Origin: Bradyrhizobium sp. CCGB12
GTDB taxonomy: Bacteria > Pseudomonadota > Alphaproteobacteria > Rhizobiales > Xanthobacteraceae
Length of the DNA: 64,000 nt
Reading direction: 5' to 3'
NCBI RefSeq assembly: GCF_024199845.1
Contig: NZ_JANADO010000001.1
Location: 6,758,001 to 6,822,000, forward strand
Shown here one piece after another: positions 27,251-29,567 of this stretch (position 1 is its first letter; each line of letters opens with the position of its first letter). Made by a program: the position numbers and the translations under genes. The notes under the pieces are model-generated. The model was not told where the DNA came from. It did no database searches and saw only the letters and a program-made list of their open reading frames with translations.

Positions 27251-27401
27251 TGGGATCCTCCTCGCGCGGCTCTTTGGCCGCTGCGGACGGAGGTCACCTT
27301 AGCGGAAATTTGGGCGCTGTCACGACGGGATAGCGCTGTCATGAGGCGCAAAGCGTTGGCATTCCAGGACGGCGATGTGCCAGTTCCGGAACTCCAAACA
27401 T

Positions 27402-27440
27402 CGTCGTCCTGGACAAGCGAAGCGCAGATCCAGGACCCAT
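27402..27440. repeat. Left remnant of palindromic repeat split by the insertion sequence
   Basis: The sequence TCGTCGTCCTGGACAAGCGA then AGCGCAGATCCAGGACCCAT equals the left arm of the intact repeat at 6471, apart from single-base differences. It stops abruptly at CCCAT where the insertion sequence begins. Continuation of the arm (CACCCCAGG) is found on the far side of the element at 28818. Confidence 0.88.
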
Positions 27441-27442
27441 AT

Positions 27443-27455
27443 GTGGACGGCCCCC
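27443..27455. repeat. Subterminal inverted repeat of the IS, left copy
   Basis: GTGGACGGCCCCC here is the exact reverse complement of GGGGGCCGTCCAC at the other end. It is located 2 bp from the inferred element end and is followed by a partly matching GGCA block. Confidence 0.9.
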
Positions 27456-27489
27456 GTGGCACAAGAGCTTTGTGAGGTTTGATCGGATC

Positions 27490-27650
27490 GCTTGCATCCA
27501 TATGTGCGGCCTGTTGATGCAGCTTTGTAGCCGCTGGCCAAGATGGTTTCCGCAACACGAGTTCCAATCACCGCTGCGACCTTGCTCGGCCAATGGGTCC
27601 CACGGATTTGCTCGCGTCTCGGGTCGACCGATCACACCATCTCCTCTGCT
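27490..27650 (-). ncRNA. Candidate bridge RNA of the IS110/IS1111 element
   Basis: The 250-bp region between the transposase stop and the left inverted repeat has no credible gene. It carries three segments related to the recombination sites. ATCACACC (27631-27638) matches the right half of the target, ATCACCCC, at 7 of 8. AATGGGTCC (27592-27600) is complementary to the left target half, GGACCCAT. CCATATGTG (27498-27506) is identical to the element's own junction at 27437-27445. On the minus strand the two target-like segments come first and the donor-like one second, the order of loops in known IS110 bridge RNAs. The second donor guide was not found. RNA boundaries are approximate. Confidence 0.5.
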
Positions 27651-27705
27651 CCTGCAGCTCCGGTTCGGTCGGCGGACTAAGTCGCCGGCCGGCCGAATCT
27701 CTCAA

Positions 27706-28743
27706 CTACGCGGCAACGGCCATTTGGGCATCGATCCGCGCGCTATCGTAGCTTTCCCCCGTGGTCATCAGTTTCCAGGCGATGCGAGCCATCTTGTTGG
27801 CCAGCGCCACTGCGGCCAGCTTCGGCGTCTTGCGCTTCAACAGCTCGATCAGCCAGCGAGGCCCGCGATCTCGGGTTTTGGCCATCTTCACCACCGAGGT
27901 TGCCCCGACCACCAGCAGCTGACGTAGCCTCTCATCACCTGCCCGGGTGATCTTGCCGAGCCGGGTCTTTCCCGCAGTGGAATGGTCCTTGGGCGTCAGG
28001 CCGAGCCAGGCTGCGAACAGCCGCCCCGAGCGGAAGGCGTGTGGGTCGGGCGCCTTCATCACCAGCGCCGCCGCCGTGACCGGACCGATCCCCGGGATCT
28101 GCGCCAATCGCCGGCTCGTGGCATCGGCCCGGTGCCAGGCCAGCAGCTTGGCCTCGACCGCCTTCAGCTCGACCTGCACCTGGTCATATTGGCGAGCCAG
28201 CATCGCAAACAGCTCGCGGGCCAGCGCCGGCACGCCTTCGTCCTGGCTGATCGCCGCCAGGAACGCGGCGAGCTTGTCCAGCCCCTTGGCCGCGATCAGA
28301 CCGAACTCCGCCGCATGCCCGCGGATCGTGTTGGAGAGTTGCGTGCGACGCGCGACCAATTGCTCGCGGACGCCCAGCAGCATCAGTGCAGCCTGCTGCT
28401 CCGCCGTCTTCACCGCCACATACCGCATCCGCGGCCGGCTCGCCGCCTCGCACAGCCCTTCCGCATCGCGCCCGTCGTTCTTGTTGCGCGGCACGTAGGG
28501 CTTCACCAGCTGCGGCGCAATCAGCTTGAACGTGTGTCCCAGCCGGCCGAGCTCGCGTGCCAAGTGGTGGGCGGCCCCGCAAGCCTCGATCACGACCACC
28601 GTCGGCGGCAGCTTGGCAAAAAACTCCAGCATCGCCTTGCGGCTGAGCCGCTTGCGCAACACGACCTGCTCGGAGGCGTCAACGCCATGGAGCTGGAAAA
28701 TATACTTCGACGTATCCATTCCAATGCGGATAATCTGACCCAC
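27706..28743 (-). CDS. IS110-family transposase (DEDD recombinase)
   Basis: A 345-residue enzyme. The N-terminal RuvC-like DEDD domain shows RIGMDTSKYIF (first Asp), TVVVIEACGAAHH (Glu) and VPRNKNDGRDAEGLCEA (the two later Asp). The C-terminal Tnp domain has LAQIPGIGPVTAAALVMKAP, FAAWLGLTPKDHSTAGKTR and ITRAGDERLRQLLVVGA, the conserved IS110 block with the Ser-containing motif. The start is GTG at 28743, with AGGAG placed 6 bases before it; codons further upstream cross the inverted repeat. The frame is intact, so the element may be active. It cuts and rejoins DNA guided by an element-encoded RNA in characterised relatives. Confidence 0.93.
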   Translation of the reverse strand: MGQIIRIGMDTSKYIFQLHGVDASEQVVLRKRLSRKAMLEFFAKLPPTVVVIEACGAAHHLARELGRLGHTFKLIAPQLVKPYVPRNKNDGRDAEGLCEAASRPRMRYVAVKTAEQQAALMLLGVREQLVARRTQLSNTIRGHAAEFGLIAAKGLDKLAAFLAAISQDEGVPALARELFAMLARQYDQVQVELKAVEAKLLAWHRADATSRRLAQIPGIGPVTAAALVMKAPDPHAFRSGRLFAAWLGLTPKDHSTAGKTRLGKITRAGDERLRQLLVVGATSVVKMAKTRDRGPRWLIELLKRKTPKLAAVALANKMARIAWKLMTTGESYDSARIDAQMAVAA

Positions 28744-28799
28744 GGACGGCTCCTGTGAATGAGTGTGTGACAACCTCATTCTGGCACACTGATGCCGTA

Positions 28800-28812
28800 G
28801 GGGGCCGTCCAC
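28800..28812. repeat. Subterminal inverted repeat of the IS, right copy
   Basis: GGGGGCCGTCCAC is the exact complement of 27443-27455. It lies about 57 bp upstream of the transposase start on the minus strand. Confidence 0.9.
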
Positions 28813-28817
28813 CCCAT

Positions 28818-28914
28818 CACCCCAGGAAGCGGTTGCGGCAGGAAGCTGATAACCGCAGATCTTCGCCAAACCACTCCCTGTGATAATGGGTCCTGGCTTT
28901 CGCCAGGACGACGA
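28818..28914. repeat. Right remnant of the split palindromic repeat
   Basis: It begins CACCCCAGG, continuing the left arm cut at 27440. It then runs through a variable centre to CTCCCTGTGATAATGGGTCC and TGGCTTTCGCCAGGACGACG, the right arm of the repeat family. The GST stop codon begins at the next base (28915). Confidence 0.85.
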
Positions 28915-29567
28915 TCAGGCCCTCACGCGCGGAGCAACGTTCTGTTCTTTTCCAGCCTTTTGCTCCGCAGCAACCGCCCGCTTGAAACCGTCACGTTGCT
29001 GCAAGCGTGCCCAATAGGCTGCGACATTTGGCCCAAAGTCCTTGGCGAGGCCGATGTTGTCGGCGAGCCGGAGTGCATAACCGATGACAATGTCAGCGGC
29101 GGTAAAGCGGCCGGCGCACAAGGTTTCGGCATTGGCCGTCGCGGCCTCGACGGCGCGCAAGCGTCCCAAGAACCATTTTGCATAGTCGGTGGCGACCTGC
29201 GGATTGCGGCGCTCCTCCGGCTCTAGCTGGGTGTATCTGAGCACCAGCGTCTGCGGGAAGGTTAGCGTGGCGTCGCTGAAATACATCCAGTTCAGGAAGG
29301 CGCCATAGGCAGGATCCTCCGGCCCGACCATCAACGGCGTCGGCCCGTGCTTGATGCCGAGATAGTGGCAGATGCCCGACGACTCGGTCATGCGCGTTTC
29401 GCCGTCGATCAGGAAGGGGATGGTGCCGAGCGGATTGAGCGCAAGATAGTCCTTGGCGAAGACCCGCGGCGGGAACGGCAGCATCTTCAATTCGTAAGCT
29501 AGCCCCATCTCTTCCAGCATCCAGAGCGGACGAAACGAGCGCGCGGCGTCGCAATGATAGAGCGTGA

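Follow-up and report, generated by a model that had tools for sequence, protein, structure and literature searches.

Introduction

The bridge RNA of IS621 contains a target and a donor internal loop, each with guides to both DNA strands that overlap at the core dinucleotide (PMC11208160, PMC11208158). In the IS1111 group, the seekRNAs of ISPa11 and ISEc11 are described as lying in the non-coding region 3' of the transposase gene, with the top-strand guide placed 5' of the bottom-strand guide, in elements that end in subterminal inverted repeats (sTIRs) with 7-bp and 3-bp extensions (PMC11187229). According to the same paper, ISEc11 RNA supplied in trans restores transposition, and a promoter formed at the joined ends is argued to yield the transposase mRNA and the RNA together. 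Bridge RNAs in the right end of IS1111-group elements were also predicted in PMC11208160, in an account that includes the inspection of six diverse IS110/IS1111 examples, and the kind of RNA considered here is therefore known. As regards targets, ISPa11 enters REP palindromes, and ISEc21, an IS110-family element with a 5' RNA and the IS110 guide order, enters conserved catalytic codons of another transposase (PMC11187229). From a rhizobial genome, that of Sinorhizobium, the IS110-family element ISRm19 was described in REP-type repeats, in a 2006 study that predates guide RNAs (PMC1525189).

The locus analysed here lies in a window of 64,000 nucleotides from Bradyrhizobium sp. CCGB12. An earlier note on this window had proposed a candidate bridge RNA in the non-coding 3' end of an IS1111-group element. 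Our comparative analysis supports the proposal by a fold and by guides that track the target, and we consider it very probable that an IS1111-type element here carries its bridge RNA (seekRNA) in the non-coding 3' region. This element shares with ISPa11 and ISEc11 the 3' non-coding RNA, the precedence of the top-strand guide, the sTIRs and the 7-bp and 3-bp extensions, and with ISPa11 the entry into palindromic repeats. It differs from the two, as they are presented in PMC11187229, in host clade and in target, in having an RNA that is predicted from sequence alone, and in donor-side guides that were mapped by comparison. The likeness to the IS621 bridge RNA extends to the target and donor internal loops and to guides for both strands that overlap at the core dinucleotide; unlike in IS621, the RNA is located 3' of the transposase gene, and both loops have the opposite guide order (PMC11208160, PMC11208158). 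The IS110-group (IS621-like) pattern, a 5' RNA with the bottom-strand guide first, is thus not that of the window element. As with ISEc21 (PMC11187229), relatives of the window element are found in transposase genes, here of the ISL3, IS66, mutator (IS256) and Y2 types, while the window element itself enters palindromic repeats; the resemblance to ISRm19 (PMC1525189) is one of description, not of sequence. A literature search that covered few subscription papers and no preprints returned nothing on this element, on the order of donor guides in IS1111 elements or on the loss of a spacer.

Results

Ends, copies and transposase of the element

The element ends in a perfect 13-bp pair of sTIRs, outside which lie a left extension of 7 bp, TGATGGG (28819-28813), and a right extension of 3 bp, ATA (27442-27440), and its extent is therefore 27440-28819, or 1380 bp (Table 1). 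PMC11187229 describes ends of this kind for IS1111 elements. Six copies, the one in the window included, are present in the genome, with transposase proteins of 100% identity and near-identical DNA. All six lie in one orientation relative to the target, at xxGG/TG..ATA/TGGGTCC (slashes mark the junctions), with no added duplication. The same element occurs in the same flanks in another genome of the genus and in one B. iriomotense record. The window copy sits in a paired palindromic repeat (28870-28920 and 27400-27440), the second arm of which is unoccupied.

The transposase matches NF033542, "IS110 family RNA-guided transposase" (E 2.4e-96, on the longer open reading frame), contains the Transposase_20 and DEDD_Tnp_IS110 domains, and resembles in sequence the chains of the ISCro4 and IS621 structures. 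L245, a copy with 91.7% identity that lies on a B. barranii plasmid, has an annotated CDS of identical length, 1038 bp. Between the transposase stop at 27706 and the element end at 27440 lies a non-coding region, 263 nt downstream of the transposase against 70 nt upstream of it; such a place 3' of the transposase suits the IS1111 group, as the earlier note had argued. We assign the window element to the IS1111 group of the IS110 family.

The copy L245 lies inside an IS256 transposase gene, an intact relative of which is present on another plasmid of the same strain, and against this intact target the 7+3 bp geometry is exact (right extension ATC). An alternative geometry, with the right end at CCACA, a target-derived TA and no loss, had been prompted by the right junction ATC of L245; it was ruled out, since the intact IS256 gene reads GCGATGGGTCGC, an exact 7+3 bp fit. 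In keeping with this rejection, 149 of 150 right junctions among the matches listed, which come from mixed clades and include no place in the window's own genome, read TA, and one reads AA. Continuity of open frames as a test of geometry had a mixed outcome, because long frames are common in GC-rich DNA.

Table 1. Features of the element and of its predicted RNA in the window (pair changes refer to 42 aligned sequences)
Feature	Position	Strand	Description
IS1111-type element	27440..28819	minus	1380 bp; six near-identical copies have the same ends
Left sTIR, GTGGACGGCCCCC	28800..28812	minus	Perfect 13-bp inverted match
Right sTIR, GGGGGCCGTCCAC	27443..27455	minus	Perfect 13-bp inverted match
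Transposase gene	27706..28743	minus	345 aa from a GTG start; RNA-guided transposase of the IS110 family
Predicted bridge RNA (seekRNA), long form	27458..27661	minus	About 204 nt, as spanned by the match to the covariance model
Closing helix 1	5' arm 27651..27658, 3' arm 27465-27458	minus	5/8 pairs changed on both sides
Helix 2	5' arm 27625..27634, 3' arm 27490-27480	minus	7/10 pairs changed on both sides; overlaps ATCACACC
Target-loop stem	5' arm 27612..27617, 3' arm 27560-27555	minus	6/6 outer pairs changed on both sides
Target-loop inner stem	27606-27604 with 27565-27563	minus	2/3 pairs changed on both sides
Apical hairpin of target loop	27577..27592	minus	27592-27588 with 27581-27577; 3/5 pairs changed on both sides
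Right-target guide, GGGACCCAT	27593..27601	minus	5' side of target loop; pairs with top strand ATGGGTCCC
Left-target guide, AGCGG-TG-AT	27567..27575	minus	3' side of target loop; same sense as left target half
Donor loop	27494..27553	minus	Stem 27553-27551 with 27496-27494; helix 27539-27536 with 27511-27508
Donor-loop inner hairpin	27534-27529 with 27524-27519	minus	5/6 pairs changed on both sides
Right-donor guide (probable), CCATC	27542..27546	minus	Pairs with GATGG of left end
Left-donor guide, CACATATG	27499..27506	minus	Same sense as right end CCACATA-TG

A covarying fold downstream of the transposase

From 115 homologous loci we obtained 90 elements with recognisable ends, 25 loci having no detectable GTGG sTIR pair; these gave 69 unique non-coding regions, of which 66 were aligned after L053, L123 and L137 had been left out. 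For the fold, L057, L113, L115, L128 and L139 were set aside, and removal of near-duplicates above 93% identity kept 42 of 61 sequences. The non-coding region of L057 exceeds those of the neighbouring L058 and L059 by about 136-143 nt and has its guide-like matches further upstream.

The conserved two-loop structure that the earlier note had proposed to look for across homologues with a covariance model was found as a covarying fold of 45 pairs. In this structure, which was partly derived from the RNAalifold consensus of the same 42 sequences, 92.0% of the cells are paired, against a mean of 83.1% in shuffles, and 29 pairs have changed on both sides, against 16.8. When the structure is slid by 1-3 columns, pairing drops to 23-38%. 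The two outer helices of the donor loop (1/7 pairs changed on both sides) show scant variation and contribute little evidence.

The covariance model matches the window with 187 bits (E 1.7e-64), the window element being itself a training row, and recovers the RNA at 22 of 28 homologous loci that had no part in its construction (three partial; some are close kin of training rows), leaving six without a match. Within the window's own genome, it finds the RNA in four of eight distant relatives, one of them partial. Against 19 unoccupied-site loci the model gave nothing better than E 0.33. A genome-wide search, in which 150 of 2552 candidates were scored, returned the six copies and seven weaker places. 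Among the latter are L211 (G000:C1:5679291), L212 (G000:C2:232274) and G000:C1:5438381; neither L211 nor L212 has an intact transposase alongside, the frames near L211 resembling IS110 remnants and those near L212 nothing obvious. Folded alone, the window RNA is only moderately better than its shuffles (z -1.62), and an Rfam search with its region gave no match.

The target guides follow the targets

A scan of all alignment columns against all target positions was run without L057, L113, L115 and the elements with a short left flank, which kept 61 elements with 52 unique targets. Its ten strongest signals all fall on two guide diagonals. One joins 27571-27575, in the same sense, to left target positions -1 to -5, and the other joins 27597-27601, as a complement, to right target positions 3-7. 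The left-target guide covaries in the same sense with target positions -5 to -1, where the three strongest signals of the scan are located, and the right-target guide covaries as a complement with positions 2-7. Whether the guides track changes in the target, a check that the earlier note had suggested, was assessed by comparing guides with own and other targets, here also without L063, L048 and L072 (60 elements, 47 unique guide sets). Out of 11 positions, the guides agree with the element's own target at 8.70 and with the targets of other elements at 3.22; the own-target score of 409 compares with a permutation maximum of 223 (0/100,000 permutations). The own target ranks strictly first for 29 of the 47 guide sets and does not for the other 18. 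When permutation was confined to backbone clades, at two clade thresholds, both target guides gave 0/10,000; at the tightest threshold the left guide again gave 0/10,000, and the right guide was weaker at 878/10,000. The left flank of the window copy, TGGGG, fits the left guide AGCGG at only 3/5 positions. Each loop presents its top-strand guide first and its bottom-strand guide after it, the order given for IS1111 seekRNAs in PMC11187229.

A direct search of the window gives GGGACCCAT (27601-27593) for the right-target guide, GCGGTGAT (27574-27567) for the left-target guide and CACATATGG (27506-27498), identical to the right end. These can be set beside the three strings that the earlier note had singled out, all of which are present on the plus strand between the transposase stop and the element end, that is, in the non-coding 3' end as claimed: ATCACACC at 27631-27638, AATGGGTCC at 27592-27600 and CCATATGTG at 27498-27506. 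The reading of AATGGGTCC as a guide to the right target half proved correct, the guide lying at 27593-27601 and covarying with the targets. CCATATGTG likewise corresponds to a well-supported donor guide (27499-27506), equal to the right end of the element and following the right extension. The placing of target guides before donor guides along the transposase strand holds as well. By contrast, ATCACACC, taken for the left-target guide, is a chance-level match. The string is unchanged in L072, L073 and L091 despite other targets and differs in L032, L035 and L036 despite a target of the same kind, and it therefore does not track the target. It also falls partly on and partly next to a conserved helix, at the 5' arm (27634-27625), and so is not a guide.

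The warning that such short matches could be chance thus held for ATCACACC and not for the other two. We estimated chance levels by dinucleotide shuffles of the 250-nt region. The ATCACACC match contains one mismatch, and at least one such site arose in 371/2000 shuffles. The 9-nt match to the right target half arose in 6/5000, the 9-nt match to the right-end junction in 5/5000 and the corrected 8-nt left guide in 42/5000; all three jointly arose in 0/5000.

Donor guides and core

The left-donor guide at 27499-27506 is well supported by comparison: it agrees with the right-extension variants ATA, ATC, ACA, ACG and AGA at 146/147 bases. The earlier note had reported the second donor guide as missing; CCATC at 27546-27542 is a probable right-donor guide, the candidate at 27545-27547 matching at 134/159 positions against 111.0 in permutations. 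In the within-clade permutation neither donor guide gave a signal, the left-donor guide having no within-clade variation, and both therefore rest on a handful of between-clade changes.

An IS621-like handshake pairing, in which the base after the core in the bottom-strand guides tracks the other DNA, stood out in plain permutations (40/49 against 23.5, 0/20,000; 29/50 against 17.8, 2/20,000). These signals are absent in the within-clade permutation, and for this reason the handshake is not claimed. The junctions hint at an origin of the left core in the element and of the right core in the target.

Relatives at other targets

The right guide of L245 differs from that of the window element by a single base, the one that changes GGTCCC to GGTCGC, and its own target has the same change. 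As judged from flank frames, other relatives have inserted in conserved codons of transposase genes of the ISL3, IS66, mutator (IS256) and Y2 types, and Pfam identified ISL3, IS66, mutator or Y2 transposases in six flank pieces (L083, L077, L095, L108, L074 and L093). Mutator is what we take to be IS256, and Y2 presumably corresponds to IS91-type elements. The flank frames at these insertions break and resume as QVADR/WHLL, LLP/WNW, VQT/CIVH and similar. At L096 an insertion in a conserved transposase codon was read by eye only, and L098, considered as an insertion in an IS66 gene, was dropped as its longest flank frame reads as another protein. In L074, a short repeat of the last ~20 bp of the right end stands between that end and the point where the target resumes.

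Six relatives (L102, L103, L104, L107, L109 and L119) lie beside a sequence of the GGATTCGAACC type, resembling a tRNA T-arm; ARAGORN found no tRNA in 12 joined-flank constructs from six tRNA-like sites. At L102, L107, L119, L078 and L059 the right extension is followed by a dinucleotide other than TG, yet the left junction reads TG.

Bases between the two target halves

We searched for unoccupied sites by comparing joined flanks with 265 genomes of the genus, the window's own included, two candidates being scored per genome. At the six sites in the window's genome, the left half is separated from the TG core by additional bases in all 41 alignment rows, some of which are paralogous repeat arms and not true orthologues. 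These bases are TA at three of the sites and mostly TAA or TTA at the others. Unoccupied relatives of other window-clade sites also have extra bases, mostly 2 bp: 5/6 rows shown of 12 found at L032 (the sixth ambiguous), 3/3 at L034, 1/1 at L035, 1/1 at L037, 6/6 at L039 and 6/6 rows shown of 7 found at L041 (two with 1 bp), with one weak row with 2 bp at L040. For ten further sites, the query across the genus genomes gave no spanning row. L050 (5/5) and L051 (1/1), which belong to a related clade whose left extension is TGTTGGG, do not show this difference. L056 was dropped as a clean no-loss control: its left side does not differ from unoccupied relatives, and a few bases right of the junction 7 bp are missing (2/2 unoccupied relatives).

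The left target half directly abuts the element in all 38 further copies of the window clade that were taken from six genomes. The same repeat type is cut after CGCGG by the window element and after CGCGGT by an element of another genome (G099), and the left breakpoint follows the element's own left guide. With less certainty, occupied sites in palindromic-repeat targets seem to be 2-3 bp short of their unoccupied relatives. At L245 the target is spacer-free and nothing was lost at the junction; its left flank has a 10-bp gap about 20 bp from the junction, and this site has therefore changed otherwise too.

Discussion

We propose that the RNA folds into two internal loops, the donor loop reading the joined element ends in the same order as the target loop reads its target. 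Once transcribed, as we infer, it would be bound by the DEDD transposase, and the two together would excise the element as a circle that would insert, in fixed orientation, into palindromic repeats reading GG..TG-GGTCC. Each loop would pair with both strands of target or donor, and the transposase would cut and exchange strands at the core. On the simplest reading the loop geometry would be that of IS621 with the DNA turned round, but the handshake signals that could have favoured this reading are absent in the within-clade test. A promoter formed by the joined ends would yield transposase mRNA and RNA together. In the window element, joining of the ends would create TATGAT, preceded at 17 bp by TTGTGC, a weak -35 (3/6); in a test that asked for 4/6 at both boxes, 29 of 66 elements pass, the window fails, and 36 of 20,942 control positions pass.

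A quite different view of the conserved stretch is that it is an end structure at the DNA level, for example a set of transposase binding sites, and that the guide matches come from shared ancestry of ends and targets. The ends are indeed conserved, and the donor-side matches vary only between clades, as this view would have it; the target guides, however, track diverse and unrelated targets on both strands even within clades, and the compensatory pair changes point to an RNA, so that we regard it as very improbable. It is also conceivable, if unlikely, that the bridge-RNA element is genuine and that the window copy, or every copy in this genome, has lost its mobility. No tandem or circle junction was found in the assemblies of 397 genomes of the order, and a looser junction pattern occurred in 5 of 265 genomes of the genus, none of them the expected CCACATATGATGG; the two of these five that were examined have no element ends around them. 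Circles, however, are expected to be absent from assemblies, and the six copies are near-identical with transposase frames free of stops.

As regards the missing bases, the target spelled by the guides of the window clade would be shorter, by two bases, than the repeats that were entered. The left guide would fix the left breakpoint and the right guide the right one, the intervening 2-3 bp being lost, and a relative with a spacer-free target would insert without junction loss. That the half-guides act as independent rulers in this way, in loops that mirror those of IS621 with the opposite strands exchanged first, is a tentative proposal, to which we assign close to an even chance. It competes with the reading that no bases were lost and that the elements of this clade chose rare repeat alleles already devoid of the 2-3 bp, which is tenable if somewhat doubtful. 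Such alleles exist, at 3 of 45 unoccupied pattern sites in one genome (G092) and at 5 of 90 pattern matches in the window's genome, three of these in repeat context as judged by eye; the guides fit them exactly, and L245 used such a target without loss at the junction. Against the choice of such alleles stand the 41 of 41 rows with extra bases, paralogous arms among them, and the 32 right junctions in G092 as opposed to only three spacer-free unoccupied sites there, with the left half abutting in all 15 of the 32 that were examined. Moreover, different elements in the same kind of repeat have different left breakpoints, each according to its own left guide.

If the loss of the spacer is real, left and right guides set out of register would lead to short programmed deletions at the insertion site, and whether the RNAs of the IS1111 and IS110 groups work alike would become a directly testable question. 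The dozens of natural retargetings among the relatives could serve as templates for reprogramming, and the comparison provides a guide map, obtained from sequence alone, for a clade of IS1111-type bridge RNAs in alphaproteobacteria.
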